Shown here piece after piece: positions 4,134 through 44,970 of a stretch of 64,000 nucleotides of DNA (within the stretch, counting starts at the first letter, position 1; the number at the start of each line of letters is the position of its first letter). Position numbers and translations under genes: made by a program. The notes under the pieces are model-generated. The model did no database searches, was not told the DNA's origin, and was given only the letters and a program-made list of their open reading frames with translations. This DNA comes from Aphrocallistes beatrix (taxonomy: Eukaryota; Porifera; Hexactinellida; Sceptrulophora; Aphrocallistidae). Location: positions 1,496,096-1,560,095 of the forward strand of contig OY725499.1 of NCBI GenBank assembly GCA_963281255.1. The letters run 5' to 3'.

Positions 4134-4315
4134 CATTTTGCGCTGAAAAAGAGAGATCAGTAGTAGAAGGTTCAATTGATAGTAAACTATTATAGCCACT
4201 AAAGACCATACTTCGCTTATGGTGATCAAATACTACACCAGAATCCGCATCAGATGGTAAGCTTTGCCTTTTCAAATCACCAGATAAAAAATATCCCATT
4301 TCCTTAGTGAGTGAC
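4134..4315 (-). CDS. Putative host gene, exon 5 (internal)
   Basis: Minus-strand segment of 182 bp between acceptor TTTTGATAG (exon begins at 4315) and donor ATG|GTAGTT (exon ends at 4134). It starts with one base completing the codon left by exon 4 and ends in phase 1. The translation begins SLTKEMGYFLSGDLKRQS and ends STTDLSFSAQN. It is hydrophilic with no recognised domain. Support comes from splice signals plus phase agreement with exon 4, not homology. The following exon was not identified. Confidence 0.55.
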
Positions 4316-4657
4316 CTATCAAAATAAAGGAAATAAGCAATTTCTTAAAACATGGTATATTCTCAATAGGGTCTGGTAATAATATAATATTTGACAATAT
4401 ACAAGTATCATTAACCATACATATTAGACTTCAAAAGACTTTACAAACCTATCAAAAATATTATCAACGTGTTCACACAAAAAGTACAAATATTGAAAAA
4501 GATTAACAAAATTATGATGTCATCTGAATATAGACCACAAAGTTAATATAGGATACATTTGTCGAGTTTCTGATATATTTTAAGCATAATTTAAGCAGAC
4601 TAAAAAGTGTTTTTCATTTTGAATAGATTGGGGGCGGTAGACTGAAATGTAAAAGTA
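4316..4657. other. Intronic sequence, nothing recognised
   Basis: AT-rich sequence between exon 5 of the putative host gene and the hAT-like element. No repeat family member or coding signal was seen. Confidence 0.4.
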
Positions 4658-5519
4658 TCATAGAACAGTGGCGACGAGAGGGTGAGGCCTGGTGAGGCAG
4701 AGGCCTCAGGAGAATTCACTTGTGCCTCATCTGAGGTGTGGCACAGCCCTACCACATGTGTTGTGGCACAGTACTCAACTCAGGAAAGGCACAGGCCTGT
4801 TTATTCGTAAGTTGATCAGTGTTATGGATCTACTACACCTAAGTTGATCCGGTATTACAATCTACTATATTATAGTAACTTGATCCGCAATTCTATTTTC
4901 AGTATTTTTATTTGCTAATCATTTTTTTCGCTCCAATCGAAATATTGCACTTAAAGATTTTATAGATTTGTTCGTTGACATGCCCCAAAATGATTTCGGG
5001 TACAGACATGTACTCGTCGTTCGTTACTTGAGCAAATGAGTTGTTGCAAGACCTCTTAAACCAAAAACTAGAAAATGTTTACAAGTATGGTGATGGACAC
5101 ACACATTCGAAATTAGAGAATTATCATTTTAATATTAATAAAATTGCTTGAAATTCAATTTGTCGTTGATATAATATAATTTCAACATTTCAAAATGATT
5201 GAAACAGGGATCATACAATTTCAATGTATTCTATAAGAATTATTTATAAAATTAACATCATCCACAATTTTTTTTTCTCAGCTAAATTCCAGCATTCATT
5301 GAGTCATAAAATCACTCATTTTGTTAAGATTACTTAAACCAAGTTATTATGACAAATGTTCTCAACACATGAATTCTCAGATCGGTTACGCAGCAATGAC
5401 AATAAGTATAACATATTCAAAAATATTCAAATTGTACCGAACTAATTACTTGTAGCAATAGTTTGGCAATAGTGAGATTTCTCAAATAAGTGATTTGTTG
5501 AATACGACTGATTGATCGA

Positions 5520-5690
5520 TTATTAATTAAGAGGAGTTCAACTATATGCATGAACAGTTGGGGGTTGATAACCGAAGGACAAGTGTATACCATCCTCAGA
5601 GCAACGGTCTTGTGGAGACACACAACAAATTTTGAAAAGGTTTGAAATACTATTTGAAGGCCGATCCTTGATCAGAAATGTAGTACCGGG
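5520..5690 (+). pseudogene. Retroviral-type integrase fragment (Ty3/gypsy or Ginger-like)
   Basis: The plus-strand reading contains NRRTSVYHPQSNGLVETHN, the characteristic segment around the catalytic Glu of gypsy-type integrases and the related Ginger transposases (consensus HPQ(S/T)NG..E). A stop follows soon after (KF-stop-KGLKYYLKA). Only the C-terminal part of the catalytic core remains. The neighbouring OTU domain recalls Ginger1 elements, which can combine integrase-like transposase and OTU domains. That link is inference. Confidence 0.7.
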
Positions 5691-5849
5691 TGTAAAACGC
5701 CACTTTATAGAGTCGACATTGTATCGAGTATCAACACCGAGTTCTAAATCCAGTTGTGAGTTGGACAAATTAACTATTCAAATAACTAAATCATCAAGAT
5801 GATTTTCGATTGTTTACGAGTTAATTAATATACTAGATATGTGACCGCT

Positions 5850-6710
5850 TGGAAACAGAAATGATAGATGGGTTATACACTTCTGAGACTGAAAACAGAC
5901 CATTCAAACTTCCATTCCTTTCACCAATGATCCTTTATACATTCCTGTCAAGGAATTTTGGCAGAAGCAAAAGTCTCAAGAACTGGGTATTAGATTATAT
6001 GAGAACTTCGAGCAACAACCATCCTGAACATATTCTCATTTCTCTGAGTTGATTCCCTGGCAAACAGAAAATATTGCGAGCAGGGTATTATAGCCCTCCA
6101 GAGATACGCTCCTAATCTCAATCCCATAAATTTTAATGCACCTAAATCTATAAATAACACTATAATATAGGGTAAATTGGATAATATACTAAATTTTCAC
6201 GCTCCTAAACACTTACGGGCCTAAAATCATACGCCTAAAAAAGCGTCTCGCGCTCCTAGATAATCCCTTGATAGAGAGGGATGGAAACTGATTTTTCAGA
6301 TGCATTTCCAAGATGATAACAGGGACAGAAGACCAACATGTTAAACTGAGAGCAGTGATATGCCTATATATGGTGACAACAGGGAGAGTATTGATGAAAA
6401 GGTATCTAAGAACATTCACTAATGATACTACACCGATAGACTATCTAAAAAAGGACGGAATGATTGAGAATGCAATTTGGGCTACAGATGTAGAGGTGTT
6501 GGCAGTTTCTAGTATGCTCAATTCTGATGTTTATATCGCCACATAACAATTCGAAATATTAGGAGAAGAAAAACCTGGAATCGATATTCCTGTTGTATTG
6601 AATCCTCAAGAACTGAGCATTCAGTGTCTCTCTACTTTCCAACATAAATCACAACCACTATGAGCGTGTCATTCGCTTAATAAATTTGGAGTACGAATCA
6701 TACTGAAAGA
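5850..6710 (+). pseudogene. OTU-type cysteine protease domain, broken
   Basis: Upstream residues (IPVKEFWQKQKSQELGIRL) lead towards an OTU catalytic block. In frame with the ATG at 6313 is DGN, then TGA at 6289-6291, then FFRCISKMITGTEDQHVKLR. The stop sits where the OTU motif DGNC has its catalytic Cys. Downstream is ENAIWATDVEVLAVSSML, matching the conserved WG/ATxxE segment. After a +1 frame change the His motif NHYERVI occurs at 6653-6673. Order and spacing fit a transposon-encoded OTU domain. One nonsense change and at least one frameshift make it a pseudogene as it stands. Confidence 0.7.
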
Positions 6711-7336
6711 GTTTAAAGATGACTTACGTAGTAGAGACTTCACTGAAACTGATGTGAGTGCCATGGAAATGTTTAGTTGTCACTCGAAAATACTACCTGT
6801 TTTTTAACAGGGGTCGCATGCCTGTTCTGGGTCTTACCCTGTACCGGGTAACTGATGATGATCTTTGGAAGGTCGAAACCTAGAACATGAATATCAGCAC
6901 AAAACAAATCTGAAGATACATAATAGTGCATTATTTGTTAAATACTAAATCAATTTTCTGTTAGAGATTTTCTATCACATATTGCTAAATATCTATGTTA
7001 TATTTGAAGTGTTAATATGTTTATTAGAAATCGCTGAACGAGGCAAAAACCAAACTCCCATTATTTATCTATTTAAGTTATCATATTATCATTGACAAGA
7101 ATAGCAAAAGTTCAGAAATAACGAATCAAGTTGCTATATAACAAAGTTGACAGAAATTGCGAATCAAGTTACGATAATAAAGTAATAGCGGATCAAGATC
7201 CTATAGAAATTGTAGATCCATGGCGCGAACCAAGTTACGATGCGGATTCAAGATACGATAGGTTTCACCTCAAATAAGTTATGGCTCACCTGTGCCTTAC
7301 CAGTGGTGAGCTGCTAGAGCCGCTACTGTAATGGAA

Positions 7337-8794
7337 TGATTTCAAATTCCTGTCCAACTGTATTTTGGTCAATTTGGAAAGATTCGTAGGAGTTAGCAAA
7401 CAATTTTATCACATTTCAACTCAAGACATTCAACCAAACAAAATATCACATCAATTTAGAATTTAGGAGGAAATAACTTATCATCAAGAATGAAACCGGG
7501 GCATAGCTAGTCAAGGTCAAACAAGGTCCATGCACGGCCAATGATACTCTGTGCCTTGACAATCGAATTTGGTCGTATTGGAAATGCTACGGATTCATAG
7601 TTATTGACTTTCCATCGTAATTATGTAAAGAACAACTGCTGCTGGTGCTTCTAGCTCAAGTAGATGCTAGAGAAATTACTGTTACAGCATTCTTCCACAA
7701 TACGACTGCACACTCCTGTTTTTCGACATTTAACCCCTTAATAAATGTGAAAAATAATTCAACTTATCGGTTTAGATCTTTAATATGGGTTCATGAATAA
7801 TAATAATACTTCTTCAATATATTTCATCTTACTATTAATTTTACCAATTATTGTGAAGTTGAAGAATTTCAAAAGAAACGTCTCCTTTTCTTCACGGCAT
7901 GTCGTTGTTGACTGAAAAAGAATGTGGTTGGTTTTTTGAAAAACAAGGAGATTTAGTATTGACTGGTCCAGAATCATTAAATACAAGTTAATTTGATGAA
8001 TCTCGTCTTTCCTGTTCTCTGCAGAACAAGCAAGAGTAACAACATCCATTCATGAACTACCATCCGATATCTCTGTAGGACCAGGTTTTATCCACCTGAT
8101 CAGCCTCGAAACTTTCGGTTTGCTTCGAGAATTTTTCTGAGAAATTTCTGACTTTTAATTAACCCTGGTACAGTATATTACCCATAGGTAAAAACTCTGT
8201 GTCTTGAGATACAGTATTTTGTCAACCCTATCAACTGTTCGCATTACATACAGTAAAGTTAGAGATGGTTTTTATGTATACATCTTGAGCAACTAAGTTG
8301 AAAGCTATCAAGTGAATATATTAACTGGCTACAAATTAAAATGTGAAGAAAAAGAAATTTTCAAGATTTAGTGTATATGTTACAAATTAAATGTTTTGAC
8401 CACAATTTGGATAGAAATTGGGGTGCACGAATACTTTTGTTCAGGAAATTCACATTTTGCTTCTGTTGCTTGAAAATTAAGTTGAAATAAAAACTTATTG
8501 AGAGATAGAGGACAGAAAACATCAAGACAATAATCACAAAAAGCACTATCTAATACAAAGCAATTAATTTTATAGTGTTTTGAAAAAGAATTGGTATTTA
8601 TTTGTAAAATATCAAAATTACTTCCCTTTGAGTAATTTATCATAAAAATCAAAAGTTTACATGGTATCTTCCATTTATCTCATCAAGGAATAAATTCGTA
8701 TGAATTTCATCAGGAATTGAAACCCCATATTGTAAATGTGCAAATCAAGATAAATAAAAGTTTTAAACAATTGCAAATAAGATAATATACATAC
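7337..8794. other. Intronic sequence with one candidate cryptic exon
   Basis: No repeat family recognised. On the minus strand, near 7915-7848, a short segment follows a strong acceptor (CCACATTCTTTTTCAG) and ends before ATTG|GTAAAA. Its phase does not fit between host exons 4 and 5, so it is not included in the gene. Confidence 0.35.
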
Positions 8795-8899
8795 TTGGAA
8801 CAATGCATCATATCTTTCGCTATTTGGGGATAATCTGGATGCGAAGGAATGATAGGACTCCATAAATCTGAATTTTCTAATGAAGGGGATGAGATGCAT
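8795..8899 (-). CDS. Putative host gene, exon 4 (internal)
   Basis: Minus-strand 105-bp segment after acceptor CTTATATTTAG and before donor CCAA|GTATGT. The supported frame starts with one base completing the codon left by exon 3. It reads CISSPSLENSDLWSPIIPSH followed by PDYPQIAKDMMHCS, and ends in phase 2, which fits exon 5. An overlapping frame with an ATG is also open but does not fit the flanking phases. No recognised domain; rich in Ser and Pro. Confidence 0.55.
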
Positions 8900-9859
8900 C
8901 TAAATATAAGGGCGTCATAAGTATTAAATAGTTAATAATACAAAAGCAATTAAGGTAATGAATTCGTTCTATAAATACAAAAGAAATGAAAGATCCATAA
9001 AAAGTACACTGACAAAATAATTTGAACGAAGTTTAAAAAGAACATGGCGTATGCGTTTCACAGTGAGTATTTAACAAAAAGGATTAAATATTGCGACACA
9101 CGTATGTACACAAATGAAAAAGGTAAAGCTAAAGACGTGCTTTTTAGCTTACCCCTAAAAATTAATAGTTTTGCTCAATTTCGCACCAACAATGAATTAA
9201 ATGCAGATATTCATAAATACCCTCTTGATATTCAAAAATAAACAACCAATCTCTTTTGAAGTTTTACATCCCTAGCAAATAATATATTCATCTATCAATT
9301 ATTACTTGAATATAATAAGTAAGGTATAAGTTAACTAACAACAACTTTATTAAAACCGTTAAAACATTAAAAATCATTTGGTAAATTAGTTTCTATTTTC
9401 CAAATGATGATAATTAGTGCATATATAATTGCTGATTTCATAAACCACACGTTTCAAATAATATCCATCAATAACCACTAAATTTGTTTATGTTTTCGAA
9501 ATTCAACTTTCTGTTAGATCTACGCAGCTAATAATTGATATTTTCAATATGTATAGACAAATGAAGATGAATTTTTTCTTCGAATTAAGTTAGCAAATTT
9601 TAAAAAAATCGATTAACAAATCCTTGGTGGAGTATAACTCCAAAGTTATAATTATATAAAAATATCACAGCTTAAGGTGACAGATTCTCAAAGAATAAAA
9701 GTCTTATTTCAACCATTGGAATACGGTTTATGAATCGACTAGTTAGTATAAGAATTATTGCATTATATGAGCATAGAACTAGGAATAAATAGTTATAGTC
9801 ACTCAAAGCCTGAATCCGATACAAAATCCGTGTTTGGGCCGGTCGGCATAACTACACTA
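8900..9859. other. Intronic sequence, nothing recognised
   Basis: AT-rich. A 65-codon plus-strand frame at 9044-9241 has no recognisable motif and no supporting splice context, so I treat it as chance. Confidence 0.35.
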
Positions 9860-10360
9860 TTGGCAAGGATCTAGTTGATTTAACCGCTCAATGATACATC
9901 ATTGTAGCGGAGCAGGTCTTTTTAAAATTTTGACTATAATTTTTTTCATGATGAAAAATACTATTTTGTCAAGCTATTCAATAAGGAAATTTTAGACAAA
10001 ATCAATTTCAGTTTTTACACTTTGCTATTATTCGGAACGCTACTAACTATTTTCTGAGATAGTGATTTACTGATGTACGCCAATTGACACTTTTAAAAAT
10101 TTAAATTAATAGATATCGAATGAAAAGGACAAGATTGTACTTGCTATAAATATATATATAATAATCGGAATGACAAATTTTTCATTCGGATTATATAGAC
10201 ATCCTAGAATGATATAAAAACAAAATTACAATGTTTTGAATTTTTTGAAAATTGGGGCCTGTCGCCATAAAAAATAAAATAAAACAGTCTTTAAAAAATG
10301 TCCTGAAGGTAGTTATGGCTTTCAAAATCAAAAGCTACTTAAGAAATCGAAAACAGTCAT
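9860..10360 (+). repeat. Family C fragment
   Basis: Segments such as GTACGCCAATTGACA, the line ending CATCCTAGAATGATATAAAA, and ATTGGGGCCTGTCGCC correspond in reverse orientation to 56220-56480 (GGTGACAGGCCCTC ... CAATTGGCGCACATCC). It is a diverged partial copy of the non-coding family C repeat found at 46.0-46.6, 50.2-51.3, 55.2-57.3 and 60.9-62.7 kb. Confidence 0.55.
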
Positions 10361-11374
10361 TTAATAGAAGAGAGCGGAGATAAATTTGGATAAAATGAAT
10401 ATTCTTCAAGTTATTGTATCACTATGGGTCCTAAGCCTGGATTTTTTCAAAATTATCGAATTCATTGAGTTCAATTATTGAGTTCATCGGGAATTTTAGG
10501 TACAAAAAGGGTTCGAAAGGTTATTTGATGGGATTTTTGAGATAGAATAATAAATTATAAACTCAACGTCATTCGAAAATAGATATGTCAAAAAGAATTG
10601 GGGGTGGAGATTTCGCAATAAGACCATTGCAAGTTGTTGCCACATGTAACGATTTTGGCACTTCAAAATACCATTCCGGGGTTTGGGGTCTTAAGGGTTC
10701 GATAAATGGGCATGATTAACAATTTGTTTCCCTAAACAAGCCGTAAATTTTTAAAATGACCATTTAAAAGATGCAAATTCAAAACATTAATTTGCTTACA
10801 CGTTATCAATCACATCATTTTTTCCTAACTATAGTTAGTAAAAATGATTTGGTAAATATATTTGCTAGTCCATTTGTTCTATATAGTAAGCTACATACAC
10901 TTGAATCTTTTTTACGGAATAACCTAGTTTTCAAGGAATAACTTAGTACTATATAGAACAAATGTAGCAAAATATATTTACCAAATCTATTTAAAAAATC
11001 TTTTCGTGCTATATATTAACAGTTAAAGTATATCGTCTCAAATAATCTAGTTCGAATTTTGTGAATCTTGTCACTGTGACACTTTTGAATACCTACTCAG
11101 GGCAGCCAAATCGTGGTTTCCGGAATTACAGTTACCCATTGCATCTGCTTTTAGTCAATGGATTAGCTTGCGTCCTGTTTTGGGCATCCACAACCAGAAA
11201 TATTCCTCTTTGGACACCCACTGGCAATAGGACCTGAAGCCGGTTATGATTTTCGTTGCGTTAATTTGATCATGTGAATTCAAATGGAAAATCAACATTT
11301 CTTGTTTATAATTACAAATGAATTACTAGAAAGTAATTTAATCTTATATAAAAAAATAAATTCGGATACTATTA
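10361..11374. other. Intronic sequence with an imperfect hairpin at 10850-10985
   Basis: Mostly featureless. GGTAAATATATTTGCTA and ATTTGTTCTATATAGTA near 10852-10890 are answered by inverted copies near 10945-10983, forming an imperfect palindrome of about 130 bp. It is probably a small MITE, but no target duplication was identified. Confidence 0.4.
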
Positions 11375-11975
11375 CAGGGTGGTTCATAAGTTCTGTGACA
11401 AGCTTTATTAGGTATAAAATTTCTTATTCCCAAACAATCTTAGTTATTATGGTCTTTAGAGATTGTAATTCGGATATTTCAGTTATTTTAAAAGATTTTT
11501 CTAAGACCTGGAACTGTGTTTTGTATGCTGAGCTTTATGGAGAAAAAATGTGCACTGGAAAGCAGCGAAAATCGCGAATCTGCCCACCGCTTCTGAAATT
11601 ATCTTCCTAGAGTCTTCAAATTCTAGGAAAAATTAGCACTCACATTTCCCTCGAACACTAAGTTTGTAAAATATAGGCTGTTAGATCAGTACATATTGAG
11701 AACCATTAGGAACAATTTTTTGGTGTTGTGGAAAAAAAGTGCAATTTTGGCTGATTTTTCAAAAGATAACGCTTTGAATTCGTGTGAAATAATAACTTTC
11801 TCTCGTTTTTTGATAAAGAATTCAATGGATTTGTGAAATATTTCAAAGGTGAATGAAAGGTATCTGGTGCTAAATCGTCATGGAACATCTTTTATGAAAA
11901 CAATTTTACAGAAGCAATGGGCACTGATTCGCGATTTTTGCTGAGCACCAGGACACAGTTTCTTCCGCAAAACAC
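11375..11975 (+). mobile_element. Family E MITE (CAGGGTGG), truncated copy
   Basis: Starts after TA with CAGGGTGGTTCATAAGTTCT and is homologous through its length to the complete 771-bp copy at 31440-32210. Shared blocks include TCTAGAGTCTTCAAATTCTA and CTCACATTTCCCTCGAACAC. The right terminal repeat is missing. Open frames inside are not conserved between copies. Confidence 0.7.
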
Positions 11976-12412
11976 ACCTCTTTGTCAAAAACTCGAATAT
12001 ATTGTCTACTGTATTAGGTTACAGCAGGAAAAAGTAATAACAAATGAAACCTTTTTAAGGCTATATATCAAAATTTATAGTAATTTTTAGATAATAAAAT
12101 CATTTATTATAAGTAAACATCATAAAGATATACCAGTTTGCCGCCGCTATGTGCAAACCAGAGGCGTAAAACTAATAATGTACAACTAATTAAAAATTCG
12201 AACCAATTTTATTTGTAATTAGGATAAATTTATCAAACTAAACATGTACTATGTATCATGGTCAATAGGGTGTTCTGAAAAATTTTTTTACCTTGTATCC
12301 TTTATTATTGGTTGTCAAAAGTTGATATTATGTCTGTAAACAACGTTAATATAAAATAAAACCCGATTACTATCCAACTACAGGTTGCGAATTTTGCTTC
12401 AAGTTTTGATAA
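11976..12412. other. Spacer, nothing recognised
   Basis: AT-rich sequence between two mobile elements. No gene or repeat signal was seen. Confidence 0.35.
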
Positions 12413-14748: not shown

Positions 14749-15294
14749 AGAGAAAAAAGATTGTTATGGAGTGCTGTTTAAAGGAAGGATACATTTTTTA
14801 TTCAATGTGGTGCTTTAAGAACCGAACCATGAATCGATTGTATCAGCATATTTAGCAATACCAAGGAGTATACTAGTTGGTTAGGACTAATAAGTGCTAG
14901 TGATAATATGAGTAATATCATCTCAGTTTCAGTTGGATTTCAGTTTCAGTTATAGCAATATTATTTCAAGACCTAAAAAAGGAAAGTAAGGTTGATTCAT
15001 TGATTACATAATGGGACGTAAATAAACGCAGTTTGGATAAGAAGTCTAGCAAAAAATCAATTGAATTGAGGGAAAGAATGAACTACATATATGAGGGAAA
15101 GAATGAACTACATTTGAAATTCTAACAAATCAAGAATAACCTAAAAAAATGGATAAATAAGGTGTTTATTAAGTACTATCTAAACAGTTATTTCTTACAT
15201 TTCTTGGCTTTCTTTTCTTTGTATTCCAGAAAATTTATGCAATAAAAATCTAAATCTATGTTAACTTTCATCCCTATTGCTCACTGTTTGAACC
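14749..15294. other. Spacer between two elements
   Basis: Contains two short direct repeats (GAGGGAAAGAATGAACTACAT twice near 15070-15111, and CAGTTTCAGTT-type repeats near 14925-14955). No gene was recognised. Confidence 0.4.
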
Positions 15295-15470: not shown

Positions 15471-15536
15471 AATTGTATCTTACAATTAGTAGTAGAGAGT
15501 AATTGAAGAGCCGAGCGTTTGCTACAATTCCTCATA

Positions 15537-18591: not shown

Positions 18592-19073
18592 TTCTCAGTA
18601 AATTGAGATTCAAAAAATCTGATTCTTTGGATTCCTTGAATTCCAAATGGTATTTGTGATAATTCATAAGTATGAGGCATCGTAGCAATAGAATGACGCA
18701 CATATGAATCATTGGTGGTTGAGAGATTTACTGTAGATTGAGGTAATGGAGTCAAAGGAAACGCGATAGAATTAGGACGAATATGAGGATTCTCGTTAGA
18801 ACTGTAAAAATTCTGAATAAGATACGATGAACAATGAGGACTAATAGCTACATCAGATTTTAATTCATTTGGGGATTCATGATTTAAAGCATGATTAGAA
18901 TGTACATATTGACTACCAGTAAAGAGACTATTACCAGAATTAAAATTAGAATTAATTGAACATTGACTTGAATCACCAGTTGAATAATTTCTGTGTTTAC
19001 TCTTAGGGGAGATAGCTGAGCTCATTTCGATAATATTTGGAGTAGATTGGATAGGAATATTTGAATCTGTACT
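18592..19073 (-). CDS. Putative host gene, exon 3 (internal, largest)
   Basis: Minus-strand segment of 482 bp open over its full length. It lies between acceptor TGATTTTATAG (exon begins at 19073 in phase 0) and the strong donor GAGAA|GTGAGT (exon ends at 18592 in phase 2). The translation begins STDSNIPIQSTPNII and includes MSSAISPKSKHRNYSTGDSS and a long Ser/Asn-rich, apparently disordered stretch (SINSNFNSGNS, FYSSNENPHIRPNS). It ends FFESQFTE. No known domain or transposon motif was seen. Its length, lack of stops in an AT-rich background and consensus splice borders make it the best single exon of the gene. Confidence 0.65.
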
Positions 19074-23239: not shown

Positions 23240-24880
23240 CTGAGATCCGGACAGCTCTAAATTTCAATGCTCTGAGATCCGGACATTATCCATTTTTACT
23301 CTTACATGAACATTAGAGTAGGTATGGTTAAATACGATTTCTCTTTTTCAACTTAATTAGAATAATAGCGACTACATCATCAAAGAAAAGGAAACATCAA
23401 GCAATTAGTCTCGAACTTAAGTTGAATATCATAGCAGAACTGTTGAAGGGCAAATCGCAGAGGTTAGTTTCAGATATTTTTCAGATATCGAAGTCGACAA
23501 TAAATGATATCTGGAGACAGAGAGAAAAGATTGAGCAGCATATAACGAGTTGTGATCATCCTACTCTAGTGAAGAAGCGATGTATAGTAAGGCACGTTCA
23601 CTTCCCGGAGTTTGATAAGGCATGTCATATCTGGTTTTTGCAACAACGCTCCAAGGGCGCTCCAGTTTCAGGCCCTATTCTACAAGAGAAGTCTTTGCAA
23701 TTAAAGAAACTGGGCTTTGGTGGAAATTAATTCCCTCAAAAACTCTCATTTCCGATGGTGAAACAAATGTTAAGAACTTCAAACAGTCGAAAGACAGAGT
23801 GACTTTACTTGCTTGCGTAATGCTTCTGGATCTTGTCAAATTCCGCTGGCCTTCATACATCGGAGTGCCAGGCCTCGCTGCTTCAAACACACTAATATGG
23901 AATGCCTCCCAGTTAGTTATTTTGTACAAAAACGATCTTGGATGGATGCTAAAATTTTTCAACTTTGGTTTCAACTCAAATTCTTACCTTACGTGAAACA
24001 ATTTTGTCAGAAGGTATCCATTGAGTATAAGGCACTCTTGTTATTGGACAATGCACCAGCACACCCTCCCGTTGAAAAGCTTCAATCAGAGGATGGAAGA
24101 GTAGTAACAATGTTTTTACCAGCGAACACCACTTCCATCCTCCAACCCATGGATCAGGGTATCCTGGAGGCAATGAAACGGCGTTACAAAAAATGTCTAT
24201 TACGCCATTTAATCCTTGAGGAACGTGCATTAGAATTATCGATACCTGAAACTAGCAACCATCAAAGATGCAGTGTACTGGGCGGCCCAGAGTTGGGATG
24301 AGGCAACTCCTGAAAGTTTATCAATGGCTTGGAATTATTACTTCCCGATTCCTCTTTAGAGGTCGTAGATAGCACATCCTCGCCAAATAATGAATTAGGA
24401 GAATTCACAGATTTATTTTTGGAAATGGGATCTTCAGAGAATGATGAATGGCAGCAACCACACGAGTGGCTTGATGAAGATGATGATCCAGGATACCAAC
24501 TTTTGAATGATAAAGAAATTATCTCAGAAGTTTTAACTACAAATGAGGTTGAAGAAGACACAACTGATACTAAACCTTGTGTATCCCCAGCGCAAGCATG
24601 TGAAGCCCTGGAAATCGTGTTAGAATGGCTGGAGTCCCAAGGGGATACCCAGATAGAACATTTGCTTTTAGTTAAGAAATGGAGGAACAGGGCTGCTGAA
24701 AAACGAATACAAACTACTAAACAGATATCAATATTGTCATTTATCAAAGACCAATAAGGAATATAATAATTATTTGTATTCAAATCAATCTTTATAACCG
24801 AATTTTACTTTTTTATGAATTTTTGTGTCGAATATTTTCATTGGTCGTAGAAAAGAAATCCGATCTCGGAGGTTCGACTG
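23240..24880 (+). mobile_element. pogo/Tigger-type DNA transposon
   Basis: The right end ATCTCGGAGGTTCGACTG, followed by TA, is a classic Tigger terminus (reverse complement CAGTCGAACCTCCGAGAT). The left side keeps only the inner part, with two copies of CTGAGATCCGGACA (near 23250 and 23270), so the outer left terminus is lost. It encloses the Tigger-type transposase at 23360-24757. Confidence 0.8.
23360..24757 (+). pseudogene. Tigger/jerky-like (CENP-B family) transposase, broken
   Basis: The N-terminal helix-turn-helix is visible: KKRKHQAISLELKLNIIAEL, then SDIFQISKSTINDIWRQREK. The DDE_1 domain is spread over three frames: ETGLWWKLIPSKTL, GETNVKNFKQSKDRVTLLAC, LLLLDNAPAHPPVEKLQ, FLPANTTSILQPMDQGILEA, MKRRYKKCLLRHLI. 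The second (LDNAPAHP) and third (QPMDQG) catalytic Asp are present; the first, expected in DETGL, is Lys (KETGL). An acidic C-terminal tail runs to the stop at 24757. At least two frameshifts plus the lost Asp mean it is not active. It would bind the element's own ends and cut them in the nucleus. Confidence 0.85.
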
Positions 24881-29372: not shown

Positions 29373-29395
29373 GTTAGAGCATAGCATTCTATATA

Positions 29396-32938: not shown

Positions 32939-32999
32939 AAATTTTAATTTAGAAAATGAGGAAACGAAAGAGAATAAACACTAGCATTAAATAATTGAA

Positions 33000-34277: not shown

Positions 34278-34827
34278 ATCCTTACTATTAAAACTCGATT
34301 AATGTTTGTGCATGTGTATATATATATATGTACAAGCGCGCATCGCATGCTTGCGCTGCGCGACAGGCGAACACTTTGTGTCCGCCGGAGGCTCCCCTCG
34401 GTCGCCTGCGGTAACCATTGATTAATTATATGGGAGATAACATCTCTAAATACATCTGCCCTACTGTTATAATCGATATCGCACGAAAAATCACCAAAAT
34501 TATCAATTTTTAAAATTTTGATGCATAATGATGACGTCATAACAAAGTGATGAGTCATCATTTTTTGATGATAGTTGCATCATTTGTGCGATATGTTAGT
34601 ATACATATTCAATTAAATTTTCAGCCTTCTATCTCCTATAATGGCTGAGTTATGCCCGAATAACTGTGTTGCTTAACTTTTAAAAATGTGACAATGACGT
34701 CATAATTCCATGATGAGTCGACATTTTGGTCTGAGCTCAGAACTTACTGGAGCCATAGCCAAAAAATTCCCACATGCCAAAAATCAGCTTTCTGTGTCGG
34801 GCAGTTTCTTCAATCAATTCGTTACAG
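34278..34827 (-). mobile_element. Family A MITE, copy 7
   Basis: Left terminal repeat ATCCTTACTATTAAAACTCG, TA spacer, then the full reverse core to CAATTCGTTACAG. It is joined back-to-back with the next copy. TGACGTCA near 34530 and 34695. Confidence 0.85.
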
Positions 34828-35298
34828 ATATCTGTCACACAAAAAGCTGATTTTTGGCATGTGGGAGTCTTTTGGTTATGGCTCCACTAAGTTCTGAGCT
34901 CAGACGAAAATAGCGACTCATCATGGAATTATGAAGTCATTGTCACCTTTTTTATTATTAGAAATTTCAGTTTTTCGACCATAATTCAGCCATTTTAGGT
35001 GATAGAAGGCTAAAATTTTAATTGAATTTGAATATTATTATACTACACATATGATGCAACTATCAAAAATGATGGCTCATCACTTTGTTATGACGTCATC
35101 ATTATGTATCAAAATTTTAAAATTTGTCAAATTTGGTGATTTTTCGTGCGATATCGATTATAACAGTAGGACAGACGTATTTAGAGATGTTATCTCTCTT
35201 ATAATTAATCAATATGACCTCAGGTGCCCAAAGGGCGCCTCCGGCGGACATAAAGTGTAGGCCAGCTGCACAGCGCAAACAAGCGAAGCGCGCTTGTA
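34828..35298 (+). mobile_element. Family A MITE, copy 8 (inverted partner of copy 7)
   Basis: Starts within the first 30 bp of the core (CACACAAAAAGCTGATTTTT) and runs to AAGCGCGCTTGTAA. Together with copy 7 it forms an inverted dimer of about 1 kb. TGACGTCA near 35092; the first site is mutated to TGAAGTCA. Confidence 0.85.
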
Positions 35299-37014
35299 AC
35301 ATGAATATTCATTAAAACGAGTCAAAATAAATATTGGACATTTATCCGTTGAAATTTTTCTCTTAACTCATTTCATTATGAAGTTTTCAACTTATAAACA
35401 TTTGCATAGTATCTCCATTTATATAGATATCCATAATCATATTACTCCTGCTGAGGAATTATTGGGTAGTAGTATAATTATGTGAATATTAATAGCTATA
35501 AATCAAAACTTATTGTAATTTGTTGTGAATTCGTATCAATGGAAAATAAAATTTCAATAATAAACTTTGAGTATCGTTCTCACACTAGCTTTGAGCCATT
35601 ATTGTTAGACTCGAGTCAACATAATTTAAATTGCATTTTATTATATGAAATGAATAATTATTTACTAAATAAGGATTGTAAAAATGGATAGGTCAAGGAA
35701 AAAATTGCAAATGAAAGTGTCAAAATTGTCCTACTTTTTAGCTGAAGAGTAAAAGATTTAGGGTCATATTTATGGAATCTGAGTTGACCCCATGTCTAGC
35801 CTTCAATTTGTTCCATTTTGTCCTTTCGTGCTGGATCGAATATCGTACCCGAGGTGCACACATCATTCTCACAGCACCTAGTATTCCGAAAATTCATACA
35901 GTATACTCTAATTGTTTAGCCAAGAGGAAAATGATGAAAAAATGTGTCAGCAAACTAAAAAAAAACATATTATAGCCACTAATTTCAGGAGTTGGAATAC
36001 TATAGTAGAAAATTGGTAAACTAAAAACTCAGGGGTTAAAAAACAAATTTCACTTTAATTGCCACTGAAAGTGTGATTTCTGGCAGGTAATTAAAGAACT
36101 ACGAATAATTATACTATTGAATCGCTGATTATGCTGGGAAATTGCTTAGGCGATTCTTTTATTCCTTTTGGGACGAATCTTTGAGACAGTGAGAAGATCT
36201 GACTGCAATAAGTCAAATAAAAACATCTTATATTGATATTATATATGAATAATTTAATCTTTGCAAATAGGTTGTGTACAATATCTGATGTGCTTATCAT
36301 AAGCAACTAAACCTTTTTATGAAAAGGACTTCATGCCTATATCATCAAAATATTCAAAAACCTTTGGGTGCCAAAATTTTGGCATTGAGCAACAAACTAC
36401 AAATGGATATTATTGAAATTTTGGAGTGCACAATCCTTTGTTGTAGCATTAATCAGTGTTTTTCATAATATCTTATTTCTCATAATGGGAATCAAAGCAG
36501 AATAGATTCAACTTTAACACATAATTTTCAAGCATCCTGAATATGGCGAGACTTTAAAGTAGCATAACTCGCAAAGTCGGTCTTGTATCTTAAAGTTGAG
36601 ATCACCCTGGCTCGATTCCTGACAAGAGAGTGATGAAAGTATAAAATTGGGCTGAACTATGTTGCCACAAAGGATTGAGGACGGGAAAATTTTTAAAAAG
36701 ATTCCCTTGCAAGTTTTTGCTCCATGTGAAAAAAAGTATATAATGTAGGCAATGGCCATATAAATATACCAATAGTTGATAATGTTAGGTTGCTTAGTTA
36801 GCTACGACGCTCGGAATTTTGGTGGCTTGTAATAATTGCCACTAAACCACCAGATTTTTGAGTACTCAAAAAGATATACCTAAACTATTCATACCTTACG
36901 TATACACCCCCAATTGCTTGAAATCTGAAGTTAATATCCCTACGTAAATTGCAAGATTCTACAACACGCGAACAAGGTATTTGGACACTTAATTATTTCA
37001 CATGCAAATAGTCC
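35299..37014. other. Intronic sequence, nothing recognised
   Basis: About 1.7 kb without a recognisable repeat family or gene. Several frames of 60-80 codons occur on both strands without motifs or splice support. Confidence 0.35.
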
Positions 37015-37858
37015 TGTTGTATGAGGGTTTACTTACCATGACCATTTACTTACCTCTATTACATGGACCAGGGATATATTCCAGCCATGACGGTTTACTT
37101 ACCATCTTTGTTATGGCTTCACACTTTATACTTCCTATTACACAACTACATTTTATTAGTATTCACATCGGAAACAATTAATTACTTAAACCCTGAGTTA
37201 AACATTAAGGATTATTTACTGTTAGCAGGATGCATTTGATTTAATTGAAATATAAATAATGAAAAGTCTAAAATAATCTAAAACATGGATTAAAAAGTAA
37301 CTATTATTCTATAACAATTGCATCACTAAACTATATGAATTGTAAAAAGAAGAATATCGACAATGTATGAGGTCAATCACTGGCTCATAGTGATAATCAG
37401 AGTGGTTAGCTAAATAAAGAGCTGGATTGCTGTACTTATGGTAGTCGGAACAATATCTATACCACGTTGAATGGCATTCTTTTCTTCTCGGATGAGAGTG
37501 GAGATTAGGTACGAATATGTCAACACTAAGCATTTTAGAAAAATTTTTGTAATCCAAAATATCCATTCTAATAATATTAGGGGAAAAGATATAGAAATTA
37601 TTCAATAGTAAATCGATATAACAAAATTAATAAAGCATTATGATAATATCCGATATCATGTTCCAGCATATTTTACCGAATGCACTTCATTTTCCTGAAA
37701 TACATGTGAATACTAATAAAATGTAGTTGTGTAATAGGAAGTATAAAGTGTGAAGCCATAACAAATAAGGTAAGTAAACCGTCATGGCTGGAATATATCC
37801 CTGGTCCATGTAATAGAGGTAAGTAAATGGTCATGGTAAGTAAACTGTCATACAACAG
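37015..37858. mobile_element. Small element with about 150-bp TIRs and an OTU remnant
   Basis: Left TGTTGTATGAGGGTTTACTT and right AAGTAAACTGTCATACAACA are inverted. The arms continue with repeated TTTACTTACCATGACC, CATGGACCAGGGATATATTC and TTATGGCTTCACACTTTATA. TGT...ACA termini, 4-bp flanks GTCC/GTAC and the OTU fragment inside would fit a non-autonomous Ginger1-like element. The superfamily is inference. Confidence 0.7.
37325..37605 (-). pseudogene. OTU-type cysteine protease, C-terminal part
   Basis: Minus-strand reading SVDIFVPNLHSHPRRKECHS, then WYRYCSDYHKYSNPALYLAN, then HYEPVIDL. The final HYEPV with preceding LYLANHSD matches the catalytic-His region of OTU domains in transposon proteins. 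VDIFV and the Trp before it match the strand upstream. The DGNC block is absent. The rest of the protein was probably deleted when the element became non-autonomous. Confidence 0.6.
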
Positions 37859-38318
37859 TACTAAATGAGTCTATTTATGAAGGCGAATACATTTAAACGC
37901 TAAGATTACAGCTACTTGTTTTCGGATTCGATATAAATACATCCAATTTTTTCCTAGATGGATATTTCAACTCAATTGTTCGTTAAATACAGTATAAAGC
38001 TTTTCATTCTGACCAATAAAATAATTATAACTACGAAAGTAGTAACAGGACATACCTTTTAAACTCGCAGAGCAAAAGTATTGAGTCCATCATAAATGAG
38101 GATACAATTGTTTGAACGATGACAATTTTAATCGACCAAGTTGGAAGTTATCTAAGGAATAGTCATTATGCGCAAATCTGAGGTAGTGGTGAATCTAATA
38201 TAAATTTATAATGCATCAATCTCAAATTGCAATGCGCATGTAAACAACACAATTGAATAATTTACAATATATCAAATAGAGTTTTCAAATTAAAAAAAAA
38301 TTGAATTAATAACACTAC
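37859..38318. other. Intronic sequence downstream of host exon 2
   Basis: AT-rich; nothing recognised. Confidence 0.35.
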
Positions 38319-38590
38319 CTTTTTCAAAAATGGAAAAAAGGAGAATTTTGAACCGGAGGGTTTTGAATAACGACGCTTTGAAAAGTGATGAGGAGAGTGC
38401 GATAATTTGTTCTCATATTTTGCACCAAAAGAGGAAAATTGTTCTAAGTGAGAACCTTCATCCAATACTGATATAGAATTATCAGCGTAAGATACATTAT
38501 CATTAATAGGTAAAGTCGAATAATGAGCAGATCCAGTTAAGATATCTTTGGGTGAATATAATTCTGGAATATCTATCAAGAATTGAATAG
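38319..38590 (-). CDS. Putative host gene, exon 2 (internal)
   Basis: Minus-strand 272-bp segment between acceptor TATTTTAAG (exon starts at 38590) and donor AAAAAG|GTAGTG (exon ends at 38319). It begins with two bases completing the codon left by exon 1 (giving Ala) and ends in phase 0, as exon 3 requires. Translation starts IQFLIDIPELYSPKDILTGS, contains YADNSISVLDEGSHLEQFSS, and ends in a basic stretch HHFSKRRYSKPSGSKF then FPFLKK. No recognised domain; the basic patch could be a localisation signal (speculation). Confidence 0.6.
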
Positions 38591-38697
38591 CTTAAAATAT
38601 AATCATCAAAATTATATTTAATATTTTCAATTCATCAAAACATTATAATTATCAAAAAAGATGAATATAAAAGACCTTATATAGTTATAGTAAATCC

Positions 38698-39304
38698 ATC
38701 CTTACTATTAAAACTCGATTAATGTATATATGCGTATATATATATATATATATACGTATATATAGTATACAAGCGCGCTTCGCGCTTGCTTGCGCTGCGC
38801 GGCTGGCGGACACTTCGTGTCCGCCGGAGGCTCCCTTCGGTCGCCTGGAGGTAACATTGGTTAATTATAAGGGAGATAACATCTCTAAATATGTCCATCT
38901 TAGTGTTAAAACCGATTTCACTCGAAAAATCACCAAATTTGTCAATTTTAAAATTTTTGATGCGTAATGATGACGTCATAACAAAGTGATGAGTCATCAT
39001 TTTTTGATGATAGTTTTATGACATGTGAATAATATCAATATACAGATTCTATTAAAATTTCAGCCTTCTATCTCCTATAATGGCTGAGTTATGCCCGAAT
39101 AACTGTGTTGCTTAACTTTTAAAAATGTGACAATGACGTCATAATTCCATGATGAGTCGACATTTTGCTCTGAACTCAGAACCTACTGGAGCCATAGCCA
39201 AAAGACTCCCACATGCCAAAAATCAGCCTTCTGCGCCCGGCAGTTTCTTCAATCAATTCGTTACAGATATATATATACAATCATCGAGTTTTAATAGTAA
39301 GGAT
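38698..39304 (-). mobile_element. Family A MITE, complete copy (607 bp)
   Basis: The reference copy. Left terminal repeat ATCCTTACTATTAAAACTCG, TA spacer, reverse core (CAAGCGCGCTTCGCGCTTGC to AATTCGTTACAG), TA spacer, right terminal repeat CGAGTTTTAATAGTAAGGAT. Terminal repeats are about 21 bp exact. TGACGTCA near 38969 and 39137. The next copy begins immediately after it. Confidence 0.9.
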
Positions 39305-39448
39305 ATATCTGTAACGAATTGATTGAGGAAACTGCCAGGCACAGAAAGCTGATTTTTGGTATGTCAGGGTCTTTTGGCTATGGCTCCACTAAGTTCTGAG
39401 CTCAGAGCAAAATGTCGACACATCGTGGAATTATGACGTCATTGTCAC

Positions 39449-39972
39449 CATAGGCGTCGTAACCCACCCGGTTACCCGGCAATTGCCAGGCGGCCCAGAG
39501 TGAATGCTGGGTACTACCCGGCAGGCCGGGTGCTACCCGGTCTAATGCCGGGTACTACCCGGTAAANNNNNNNNNNNNNNNNNNNNNNNNNNNNNNNNNN
39601 NNNNNNNNNNNNNNNNNNNNNNNNNNNNNNNNNNNNNNNNNNNNNNNNNNNNNNNNNNNNNNNNNNNNNNNNNNNNNNNNNNNNNNNNNNNNNNNNNNNN
39701 NNNNNNNNNNNNNNNNNNNNNNNNNNNNNNNNNNNNNNNNNNNNNNNNNNNNNNNNNNNNNNNNNNTGATCGGGTACAACTCGGTAAAAAGCTTAGTGCT
39801 ATTATGTAATTGGCTGTTACTAATTCCTCATGTAGATCAAGGGTTCACGGCCCATTTGGCTGACGGTAACGCTGGATCAGCTGAAGATACAGCCCGATTA
39901 ACTGACTGAACGGCCCTAGATTATTGTGGCCGGGCAGTCCAATGGTAGGATATAAAGTTTACGACGCCTATG
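39449..39972. mobile_element. hAT-type MITE in family A, with assembly gap
   Basis: Ends CATAGGCGTCGTAACCC and GTTTACGACGCCTATG are inverted, and the 8-bp duplication ATTGTCAC (39441-39448 and 39973-39980) is exact. The left half carries tandem GGGTACTACCCGG motifs and leads into 200 N at 39567-39766, so its true length is unknown. It is more GC-rich than its surroundings. Confidence 0.85.
39567..39766. other. Assembly gap (200 N)
   Basis: Exactly 200 undetermined bases, probably a placeholder. It starts within a GC-rich GGTACTACCCGGT tandem repeat, which probably caused the gap. Confidence 0.99.
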
Positions 39973-40381
39973 ATTGTCACATTTTTAAAAGTTAAGCAAT
40001 ACAGTTATCCGAGTAAAACTCAGCCATTATAGGAAATAGAAGGCTGAAATTTTAATAGAACCTCACATATGATACTCACATATGATACAACTATCATCAA
40101 AAAATGATGACTCATCACTTTGTTATGACGTCATCATTACTTATTAAAATTTTATAAATTGATAAATTTTGTGATTTTTCGTGCGATATCAATTATAACA
40201 GTAGGATGGAAGTATTTAGAGATGTTACTTCCCTTATAATTAACCAATGTGACCCCAGGCGACCGAAGGGAGCCTCCGGCGGACACAAAGTGTCCGCCAG
40301 CCGCGCAGCGGAAGCAAGCGAAGCGCGCTTGTACTATTAAAACTCTATTAATGTGCATGTATACAGATAAATATATATATA

Positions 40382-41325
40382 CAGTGAAAACCGGTTATAA
40401 GAACATTGTTGGGAGTTGAAAAAAATGTTCTTATAACCGGTATGTTCTTAGAGCAGTATTTCTGTTATAAGAACATGTTCTTATAACCGATATAAGAGGT
40501 CAGATATGTCGGATATAAGAACAAATTTTGTTATTTTTATCGGTTAAGGAAATATGTATTGGTTGATTTGGTACATACGTACCATATGTTGAGTGTAACT
40601 ATACTGTACACGTACACTACCTACAATACTACAGCAAAAAAATGATAACTTGACTACTAATAGTTTAGAAATTATTGATAGAATGTTCTTATAACCGGTA
40701 TGTTCTTATAGCAGTATTTCTGTTACAAGAACATGTTCTTATAACCGATATAAGAGGTCAGATATGTCGGATATAAGAACAAATTTTGTTATTTTTATCG
40801 GTTAAGGAAATATGTATTGGTTGATTTGGTACATACGTACCATATGTTGAGTGTAACTATACTGTACACGTACACTACCTACAATACTACAGCAAAAAAA
40901 TGATAACTTGACTACTAATAGTTTAGAAATTATTGATAGAATGTTCTTATAACCGGTATGTTCTTATAGCAGTATTTCTGTTACAAGAACATGTTCTTAT
41001 AACCGATATAAGAGGTCAGATATGTCGGATATAAGAACAAATTTTGTTATTTTTATCGGTTAAGGAAATATGTATTGGTTGATTTGGTACATACGTACCA
41101 TATGTTGAGTGTAACTATACTGTACACGTACACTACCTACAATACTACAGCAAAAAAATGATAACTTGACTACTAATAGTTTAGAAATTATTGATAGAAT
41201 GTTCTTATAACCGATATTAGATGTTCTTATAACCGGTTCTGTTTAATTAGCAATGCATAGAAAAAAATCCGTTCCCAAATAAATGGTTCTTATAACTGAC
41301 ATGTTCTTATAACCGATATCCACTG
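40382..41325. mobile_element. Tigger-type MITE containing three 258-bp tandem units
   Basis: TA-flanked. Left CAGTGAAAACCGGTTATAAG, right CTTATAACCGATATCCACTG. Three nearly identical 258-bp units start at 40425, 40683 and 40941, each opening with ATGTTCTTATAACCGGTATG; a fourth begins at 41199 and ends early. Each unit also contains GTACATACGTACCATATGTT. It has no coding capacity. Confidence 0.9.
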
Positions 41326-41541
41326 TACATATATAAGCTCGCTTCGCCTGCTTGGGCTGCGCTGCTGGCGTACACTTTGGGCGCCTGTAGTAACATTCAT
41401 TAATAATACGTCTGTACTACTGTTATAATCGATATCGCAAAAAAATCAACAAATTTGTCAATGTTTAAAATTTTGATGCGTAAGGATGACGTCATAACAT
41501 AATATTTTTATTTAAAGTTGTAATACATGTTAAAACTATTA

Positions 41542-42307
41542 CTTAGGGCATTCAAAAAGTTCTCATCCCAAATCTGTATCTCAAATGATAGTGAAAATAG
41601 GATATTTTCTATTTGTCTATTGTATTCCTTAGGGGATCAGCTTCCAATTTGTATATTGGTTTATTTTACAAGGACAATTGTTGTGGTTCCTACATTATAT
41701 TTTTGTACATCGGTTTAAGGTAGTCCCTTTGAACGTGATTTTTCGGGTTCCCTTTGATATATTTCAGTTCTGAGCAAATTTAGATTAAAACTGATCCCTC
41801 CATCGAATTCTACGCATCAACTAACATATAGATTGAATTTTCTGAAGTATTATAGTTTGAGGCTGAGGGAATACTATGTTTTGAAGTGGTTTACTACCAT
41901 TTTTGTCCCACTTTTTGAGTGGCGAAAATTGACAAAAAATCCACTAAAAGTAGCATGATATTTTTTCAACACGAGCAATACTATTGAACACCTCCCGTTT
42001 ACTTTTTCACATTGGTTCTTAATTATTTAACCTTTTAATGACCTTATTCTACGATTTTCACAACTTTTATTCTCCAAATTTAGTTTTAAGCCATTTTCAA
42101 TGGGGAGATTCCAACTTTTCGACACTACCCTAAACCGATGCACAAAAAATCTAATGTAGGAACCACAATAATTGTCCTTTTAAAATAAACCAATATCTAA
42201 ATTGGAAGCTGATCCCCTAAGGAATACAATGGACAAATCGGAAATATCCTATTTTCACTATCATTTGAGATACAGATATGAGATGAGAACTTTTTGAATG
42301 CCCTAAG
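41542..42307. mobile_element. 766-bp palindromic MITE, copy 2
   Basis: Same length and orientation as 22178-22943, also flanked by TA. By eye the two differ at about two bases (AATATA/AATCTA and TTGCCC/TTGTCC near the right arm). The plus-strand frame at 41527-41718 is not a gene. Confidence 0.92.
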
Positions 42308-42663
42308 TAATATACACATTCTATTAAAATTTCAGCTTTCTATCATTTAAAATGGCTGAGTTAAGTGGAAAAACTGAAACTTCTAATTACAAAAAAGGTT
42401 ACAATTACGTCATAGTTCCATGATAAGTCGACATTTTGGTCTGAGGTCAGAACTTAGCGGATCCATAGCCAAAAGACTCCCACATGCCAAAATACTTCCT
42501 GTGTCAGGCAGTTTCTTCAATCAATTCGTTACAGATATATATAGTATATATATATTTAAATATATACATAGTACATACACACACAAACATTACAAACTTC
42601 CAGGCACGGAAAGGTGATTTGGGACACGTGGGAGTCTTTTAGCTAAGGCTCATCATGGAATTA

Positions 42664-43510
42664 CATTGTGTTCGGAAATTATTGATACTAAAGTTTAACT
42701 TAATGTAGTATCAAACTCGTACTTGGTAAGAGTATTATAATTTCAGGATAACTTCATTTATGCATTTTGTTACTCTACATATATTTATTGTTTTGAGTTA
42801 CACTATCAAACCATGTGATTAACCAGCATCTATTCTGGAATGCAAACTCTTTCTTTATCTTAGTTTTTGTTAAAATCCCAACCACTATTTGCTATAGTAT
42901 AGCAATGTTTTCTTCTATACCGCTTAATTGGTTATAGAAATATGTAAGAATGTACATATCTTGCGGTTGTGCAATTCTTGAGGATTTGTTCGAATGATTC
43001 GGCAAGATATAGGCTCTGAAAGTCAGAATTAGGGGTGCGTCAGTGATTACTCTACAAAAATCAAATTTCTCGAGTAAAAAAATTCAATTTGAGAAAATAT
43101 AATTGTATTTGTGGTTAATCCCCACAAATAGCATTAATTATTAGTTATTCCATTACTTTAAACAAGTTAAGTTCAGAATTGTGAATTTTATGGGCAAATT
43201 CCACTTTTACGTTATTATTCTCTGCGAGCGTCAATCACACCCCTAATTCTGACTTTCAGAGTCTATATCTTGCCGAATCCTTTGAACAAATCCTCAAGAA
43301 TTGCACAACTACAAGATATGTACATACTTAGATATTTCTAGAACTAATTAAGCGGTATAGAAGAAAACATTACTATACTATAGCAAATAGTGATTGGGAT
43401 TTTGACAAAAAATGAGACAAATAATGAGTTTGCATTACAGAAAAGATGCTGGTTAATCACATGATATGATAGTTTGACTCAAAACAATGTATATATAGTA
43501 AGAAAATAAG
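42664..43510. mobile_element. Palindromic MITE (CAGTGTGTTCGG family), older truncated copy
   Basis: Begins CATTGTGTTCGGAAATTATT and follows the element at 30073-30930 through both arms (AGCAATGTTTTCTTCTATAC, TTGAGGATTTGTTCGAATGA) to about AACAATGTATATATAGTAAG. The right terminus is missing. Confidence 0.8.
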
Positions 43511-43572
43511 AAATTAGTAAGTTGAGAGGCTAAGTCACGATTCCAAATTCAAACATATATGACCACCTTAAT

Positions 43573-43621
43573 ATGGCCCTTCCAGCGCAACACCAAGAGT
43601 AAAATCACGGCTACGCCACTG
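43573..43621. mobile_element. hAT terminal fragment
   Basis: Ends AAATCACGGCTACGCCACTG, the reverse complement of a hAT-like start CAGTGGCGTAGCCGTGATTT. No partner end was seen. Confidence 0.55.
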
Positions 43622-43706
43622 TTTCAATTCAAAATAAACTATGACTTATATTTGTCAAACCAACGATTTTATTGCTAGTTAAGAACTGTTATATTTAATT
43701 GAAACA

Positions 43707-43896
43707 CAGTATAACTCGGATAAGAAGTACCCCTTCGGGAAGGAATTATTAGTAAGTACTATCCTTAAGTACGTACTAACCGAGTTAATACTACATAGAA
43801 ATATATATAATATACAGATGGATTTTAAATCAGAGAAATAAGTACGTACTAAACAGAAGCACGTATTATCCGAGTACAACTAACTGAGTTCCACTG
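43707..43896. mobile_element. Tigger-type MITE, 190 bp
   Basis: Left CAGTATAACTCGGATAAGAA, right TACAACTAACTGAGTTCCACTG (last 20 bases conserved). The inside carries ATAAGAAGTAC and AAGTACGTACT motifs in inverted pairs. The right flank is TA; the left flank is CA, probably mutated. Confidence 0.7.
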
Positions 43897-43898
43897 TA

Positions 43899-44421
43899 GT
43901 TTAAATGGTTCATTGTGACGAAACAACTTATATTATGGTTTCTAGTATGTAACACTGGTCTTAGGTCTAGTAACATGTATAGGAACTCATTTATTGACAG
44001 AATTCAATGACGAAAATAATTATTTTACATTTCTAGAAAAAGAATAGAAAACATGGAACATATTAACCTTAAACTTTTGCGAAGAGAGGAAACACAACCA
44101 AAACAGTATTTTTTGTACTGAGCTTCCCATAAAGTATTAAAACATTAATCGAATATAATATTATTGGAAGCATAATAAAAAGCAGAAGAATTCTCTGGGA
44201 ATATTTGAATCTTCCAGACCATTTGAGGACGATTTTTTAAATATTTAACTTTTTCTCTCACATTTGGCTCTGACGATATAACCTATTATATCCAGAAAAG
44301 GGCACACCCTAAAATGAAAAAATGTTACTTACTCGATATTAGCATATCATTTGAAAGAAAAGGCAAAAATTTGAGGCGCTGCACCTTCCACTTTATAATT
44401 TCTGTTCAGAGGGGTACCTAA
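43899..44421. other. Sequence with no recognised feature
   Basis: AT-rich spacer upstream of host exon 1's intron boundary region; no gene or repeat seen. Confidence 0.35.
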
Positions 44422-44423
44422 TA

Positions 44424-44608
44424 CAGTCATGGTCGTATATTATGAACCCGCTTAATATTAATATTCGTTTATTATGAACTAACCTCCTGGTCCCAATTTC
44501 ATTTCTTAGATAGGATTTGTATTGAATCAAGTTCGCTTAATATGAAGCATCTTTATTATGAACATATCTTTTGGCCCCCTGGTGGTTCACAATAAGCGAC
44601 CCTGACTG
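44424..44608. mobile_element. 185-bp Tigger-type MITE, copy 1
   Basis: TA on the left. Left CAGTCATGGTCGTATATTAT, right CACAATAAGCGACCCTGACTG. Internal ATTATGAAC motifs repeat. A second copy of equal length lies in inverse orientation at 58418-58602. Confidence 0.85.
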
Positions 44609-44864
44609 CATTTGCATCATTTCTATACACTCAAAAGAGGGACAATTCCAATTTTTGGAATGTTTTCGACATTACTTTCAACATAAGTCAGAAAAATAGG
44701 GACATCCCACAAACAAAGGGACAGTTGGAAAGTATGCTAATTCTAGCACCAAATATTAAGTAGCTATACCAAATAGCGAGTGAAGACAATTCGTGTTTTA
44801 TTGTTGAAAATATATATAAATTTTAAAAAATCAATTACTCATTAAGACTTTTAAGAATACTTAC

Positions 44865-44970
44865 CTTTCACTTTTTTTAAGACCAGATGGTTGTCTCCTT
44901 TACAGGATTTCTTAAAAGTTGAATCACGCTTTTTTTTAGGATTGTGTTTCTTATCCTCTCTATTTGGCAT
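44865..44970 (-). CDS. Putative host gene, exon 1 (start codon)
   Basis: Minus strand, ATG at 44970, donor AAAG|GTAAGTATT (exon ends at 44865 in phase 1). An in-frame TAA lies four codons before the ATG, which supports the start. It encodes 35 residues, MPNREDKKHNPKKKRDSTFK then KSCKGDNHLVLKKVK. It is very Lys-rich, with KKHNPKKKR resembling a nuclear localisation signal. The GTAAGT donor is a full consensus. The next exon in phase is at 38590, 6.3 kb away. No core promoter could be identified. Confidence 0.65.

Follow-up and report, generated by a model that had tools for sequence, protein, structure and literature searches.

The 64-kb window of the Aphrocallistes beatrix genome considered here (the whole stretch of DNA that was analysed, 64,000 nucleotides at C13:1496096-1560095, that is, on contig OY725499.1 of an assembly of 100.5 Mb and 28 contigs) probably holds the greater part of one spliced host gene, which lies on the minus strand, is divided at predicted junctions by transposon-expanded introns, and encodes a single-copy orphan product. 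The gene would consist of six or seven exons, separated by introns of 3.6–25 kb that appear to have been enlarged largely by transposon insertion; once transcribed, these long introns would be removed by ordinary splicing, and the resulting product of about 489–524 residues would most likely be an intrinsically disordered adaptor regulated by phosphorylation. To the window, in which G+C is about 33%, we added flanks of 140 kb on the left and 60 kb on the right, giving a region of 264 kb for analysis.

An initial annotation of the window had proposed five minus-strand segments with AG/GT borders as exons of a host gene hidden in transposon-filled introns. All five are present where it placed them, with AG before exons 2–5 and GT after exons 1–5, and their lengths of 106, 272, 482, 105, and 182 bases join in compatible phases into 382 codons without a stop, as had been claimed. 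The annotation treated this product as incomplete, and indeed two more exons outside the window carry the frame to a TAA and to 524 residues. The full model is one frame that runs unbroken through 524 codons from ATG to a single terminal TAA, with GT/AG introns throughout, as in a spliced host gene; its 1575 coding bases (stop included) are spread over 69,716 bases of the minus strand, between window position 44970 and a point some 24.7 kb to the left of the window, so that about 98% of the span is intron. The exons are as follows, with those left of the window given in window coordinates:

44865..44970, minus strand: exon 1, with the ATG, 35 codons, Lys-rich, donor AAG|gtaagt
38319..38572, minus strand: exon 2, favoured acceptor 38572 (start at 38590 in the initial annotation)
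18592..19073, minus strand: exon 3, 160 stop-free codons, Ser/Asn-rich
8795..8899, minus strand: proposed exon 4, a weak candidate of 105 bases, phase-symmetric
4134..4315, minus strand: exon 5, 60 codons, moderate support
-20702..-20942 (L009:9058-9298), minus strand: exon 6, Ser-rich, single-copy, phase-matched
-24541..-24745 (L009:5255-5459), minus strand: exon 7, Ser-rich, single-copy, ends in TAA

Coding signal above chance is found in exons 2, 3, 6, and 7 and, to a moderate degree, in exon 5, and it is strongest in exon 3, whose three-base periodicity (p=5e-10; third-position T of 0.56) places it second by chi-square among the 841 open segments of at least 60 codons in the 264-kb region, the first being a neighbouring multicopper oxidase gene. 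The third-position bias of the studied gene resembles that of this neighbour, and when codon usage is taken from the oxidase gene alone, the claimed frame of exon 3 earns 30.6 bits and the other two -30 and -32. A codon model built from conserved genes only was discarded as misleading, its training genes having 52% GC at third positions where the exons are T-rich, and was replaced by a model trained on the oxidase gene together with exons 2 and 3. With this model exon 2 reaches a score of 26.0, a value unreached in 34.9 Mb of simulated sequence, exon 2 itself having been among the training data; when it is left out and the model is trained on the oxidase and the other exons, the claimed frame still scores 10.6 versus -15 and -25, with one reverse-strand frame, which contains stops, at 11.4. 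Three acceptors of the same phase (38590, 38572, and 38563) could open this exon. The first, chosen in the initial annotation, is valid and in phase but probably misplaced, as scoring favours 38572, which shortens the product by six residues and changes the periodicity from p=0.0015 to 0.0004. No Met lies in frame in exon 2 or exon 7, which if coding must therefore be spliced to something.

Downstream of exon 3, the best-scoring minus-strand chain consists of exons 5, 6, and 7 and the TAA stop. Because unrestricted exon chaining over the 264 kb strings together transposon open reading frames (ORFs), use of the method, and its comparison with simulation, was confined to the portion downstream of exon 3. 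When each exon costs a penalty of 12, exactly exons 5–7 are chained, with a score of 17.4; the maximum is 5.7 in 1178 simulations of equal unmasked length, and the plus strand of this stretch gives 7.0. Lowering the penalty to 10 raises the score to 23.9 by drawing in a small chance-level exon at 6879-6838, with controls at 9.7 (simulations) and 11.0 (plus strand). Exons 5, 6, and 7 lay outside the training data of the chain model, and their periodicity (p=0.08, 0.025, and 0.00014, respectively) gives p=8e-9 when pooled. Exon 5 scores 15.3, for which 0.13 candidates are expected per 100 kb strand in the 34.9 Mb of simulated sequence, and exon 4 scores 9.9, for which 11.5 are expected; at these rates exon 5 counts as supported and exon 4 does not. 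With each exon left out of training in turn, exon 5 scores 7.9 versus -8 and -22, and exon 4 scores 5.9 versus -6 and -8. Two small exons, at 7325-7290 and 6879-6838, scored 8.3 and 10.4, which is chance level, and were not adopted. An AATAAA begins 52 bases past the stop, a motif that is not rare in A+T-rich sequence.

Exon 1 has no codon-usage signal and rests on its donor and its phase. The annotation had pointed to an ATG with an upstream in-frame stop and a full GTAAGT donor; the stop is a TAA 12 bases before the ATG, and the donor scores 8.1 bits. Among 23 phase-matched (phase-1) first-exon candidates at window 38600-64000 it ranks second, behind a helicase fragment. Over the 264 kb, the minus strand has a single phase-1 candidate with a donor of at least 8 bits and a length of at least 90 bases, and the plus strand has none; candidates with as high a total score are absent from the plus strand and number about six on the minus strand. 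Of the five exons proposed, then, support is good or moderate for exons 2, 3, and 5, while exon 4 does not rise above chance and exon 1 lacks codon signal; the annotation probably recovered most of a real gene but could not see its last two exons.

Several results weigh against the interpretation of the locus as one spliced gene. The periodicity of exon 1 is p=0.60, and its claimed frame scores -11.7 bits under oxidase-gene codon usage alone and, left out of training, -8.2 versus -9.6 and -6.8 in the other frames. The link between exons 1 and 2 spans a run of 200 N at 39567..39766 inside intron 1. Exon 4 is indistinguishable from chance (periodicity p=0.73), the 14 kb that separate exon 3 from exon 5 being expected to hold more than one equal candidate by chance. 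Under oxidase-only codon usage, exons 2, 4, and 5 score just 1.3, 2.1, and 1.8 bits, each still being the top frame of its strand. The real-sequence controls, five stretches of at most 44.6 kb (the last two overlapping) scored on both strands and in three start phases, gave 30 values; nine, from three strand-stretches, contain exon 2 or the oxidase gene and range over 30.4–84.9, and the other 21 span 1.7–26.4, with 15 at or below 14.0 and six at or above 16 (16.0, 18.0, 19.2, 22.3, 24.4, and 26.4). Two of the 21, both from one chain, exceed 23.9, reaching 26.4. The six high values stem from chains that include segments which we take, mostly by resemblance, for transposon ORFs; as other real sequence reaches similar scores, the chain score alone is no proof. 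On the side of the product, a fold predicted for exon 3 by itself, without an alignment, has a mean pLDDT of 31.5 and says little, such a value being what would be expected of disorder and equally of a lone orphan sequence, and a motif of two basic residues, any residue, and Ser/Thr occurs four times versus 1.3 expected (P=0.04), where four motif patterns were tried and two came out at P 0.040 and 0.049, uncorrected.

The alternative that survives best, which we consider improbable, holds that exon 3 is a separate small intronless gene of 145 residues (ATG at 19025, TGA at 18590-18588) and that the other segments are unrelated to it. Its stop overlaps the proposed donor, GAGAA|GTGAGT, and intronless genes are common in this genome, an abundance in keeping with a glass sponge. 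By an eye count, 116 of the 130 listed kinase-domain matches are near-whole in one frame, all but one of these (115) being stop-free; scoring covered the best 127 of 460 candidates, among which broken genes are under-represented. Three histone deacetylase matches likewise comprise the whole domain in one open frame. However, coding-like codons run 16 codons upstream of the first ATG of exon 3, as far as the acceptor (scored at 3.8 and 8.0 bits by two models, each partly trained on exon 3), exons 2 and 7 are coding-like in spite of having no Met, and the downstream exons agree with exon 3 in phase and composition.

Somewhat less probable still is that the segments are what is left of a dead gene, or unrelated open stretches that chain by chance, a view that gains from the weakness of exons 1 and 4 and from the readiness with which chaining yields chains wherever several open stretches exist, one of them scoring 26.4, but that must contend with 524 codons without a stop, with periodicity in separate exons, and with simulations that all fall below the chain score. 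Within the one-gene interpretation itself, exon 4 may be skipped, as it is both at chance level and phase-symmetric, and the best-scoring chain omits it. There is perhaps a slim chance of a more elaborate arrangement, in which a lineage-specific regulatory protein has its expression timed by the long transposon-built introns and exon 4 serves as an optional cassette; some 1.6 kb of coding sequence would then be spread over 70 kb, whereas elsewhere the genome abounds in intronless genes and short introns. That these exons are part of a transposon, or of a transposon gene since domesticated, is very unlikely. Transposon ORFs do abound in the region, but Pfam offers no match for the 382-residue product (E up to 1), and the exons show neither the repeated copies nor the transposase, integrase, or reverse transcriptase domain of a transposon-encoded protein. 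Searched against the 100.5 Mb genome at E up to 10, the joined product finds nothing beyond its own seven pieces, a single-copy status, shared by exon 3 searched individually, that sets the exons apart from transposon relics.

The introns of the preferred one-gene model measure 6.3, 19.2, 9.7, 4.5, 24.8, and 3.6 kb, and the share of each that is repeated inside the 264-kb region, a lower bound on its repeats, is 71, 48, 18, 0, 43, and 67%, respectively. The initial proposal of a host gene with transposon-filled introns, here a single-copy one, remains the best account of the locus and is partly supported: introns 1, 2, 3, 5, and 6 are 18–71% repeated sequence and intron 2 has a transposase, while in intron 4 no repeated sequence was found. 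The transposase is recognized by Pfam profile matches:

23332..24757, plus strand: transposase remnants in intron 2

HTH_Tnp_Tc5 matches within 23332-23730 (E=8.7e-7) and DDE_1 within 23774-24301 (E=5.7e-31), with no Pfam match over its cut-off in 24314-24757; we take the element to be of the pogo/Tigger type. A 258-base unit is repeated in tandem in intron 1 (window 40424-41217), in about three copies with 99% matches. A short G+C-rich repeat occurs at window 38772-38853, 40249-40333, and 970-1060 and at many flank sites, with about 40–50 matches in the 264 kb, and a stretch resembling it by eye lies directly upstream of the last exon.

The studied gene may not be the only one in this genome with long introns. 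From 35 pieces of the conserved chaperonin (TCP1) genes, those of six genes were paired by hand; of their 23 gaps, 21 are shorter than 1 kb, another measures 4.2 kb, and the remaining one would be 49 kb if the pieces belong together. Such gaps, measured from match to match, give intron lengths inexactly, and some short ones may not be introns; the count excludes two one-piece genes and the unpaired pieces C16:3826751, C2:581902, C2:638629, and C9:4098197. The 49-kb gap separates the last TCP1 piece from the rest at C9:4032755-4084387 on the minus strand, with an extra first-exon-like piece at 4098197, and represents either a very long intron or a rearranged copy.

The product of 524 residues (489 without exon 4) is rich in Ser, Pro, Asn, and Lys, 89 of the 524 being Ser. 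No family had been recognized for it in the initial annotation, and this was upheld, the 382-residue product having no PDB match at E up to 10 and the full product passing no Pfam cut-off. It is probably an orphan, disordered protein, where orphan status is judged from the studied genome, Pfam, and PDB; a phosphorylation-regulated disordered adaptor is our guess at its role. Exons 6 and 7 joined give a weak match across the splice to PF01115, F-actin capping protein beta (E=0.002), which at 18.3 bits falls below the cut-off of 26.3 and is treated as chance; the PDB match stands at E=0.5. A PF01115 profile search of the genome listed nothing at the studied locus at E up to 10, and the intact F-actin capping beta gene of this genome lies in one frame on contig 7.

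Several features surround the gene. The multicopper oxidase (laccase-like) gene at L025:1979-4282, minus strand (window +105979 to +108282), is intact and intronless, has three Cu-oxidase domains, and is T-rich at third positions, as is the studied gene. Two adjoining open frames at L020:6661-7896 and 7900-8859, minus strand, are possibly, on our assumption, a RAG1/Transib-type element, the first weakly matching the RAG1 recombinase (E=4.5e-4; its 18.9 bits fall short of the cut-off of 25); the term RAG1-like did not occur among the matches listed from the open-licence literature. A 323-residue Ser/Asn-rich open frame at L013:8460-9428, plus strand, without a Pfam match and near a run of 2041 N, may be another orphan gene. 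Microsatellites of ATAC and GTAT at window 2664-3201 and 60010-60620, long and 99% uniform, create false open frames on both strands. A Mariner-type transposase lies at 46788-47450, plus strand (HTH_48, E=2.2e-8), and a PIF1-like helicase fragment, perhaps of a Helitron, at 63393-63779, minus strand (below its cut-off, at E=5.9e-5). The 64-kb window yielded neither a tRNA nor an Rfam match.

If the model is right, an ORF scan or a gene finder limited to short introns could miss such a gene, so that too few genes may be counted where compact sponge genomes are rich in repeats; it would also mean that a reading of raw sequence is able to recover most of a gene so heavily interrupted. The gene is of an ordinary kind and its biology looks ordinary. 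With F-actin capping protein beta it shares the weak match of exons 6–7, and it differs in remaining under the cut-off and in having the intact copy elsewhere. Taxon-restricted (orphan) genes for Ser/Asn-rich disordered proteins are a known kind, to which the product is akin in lacking a relative in Pfam or among solved structures, in its biased composition, and in its single copy. Giant-intron genes are known from Drosophila Y chromosomes and others, and with ordinary genes whose introns have been expanded by transposons the studied gene has in common its short exons, its long repeat-filled introns, and a frame that is continuous only after splicing. It differs from the known giant-intron genes in lying in a compact genome whose likely relatives have short introns: according to PMC10282587, Aphrocallistes vastus has 19,578 genes and 12,409 single-exon transcripts, with a mean intron of 516 bp on one scaffold versus 194 bp on the matching scaffold of Oopsacas minuta, and PMC10280926 gives a mean of 341 bp for a likely relative.

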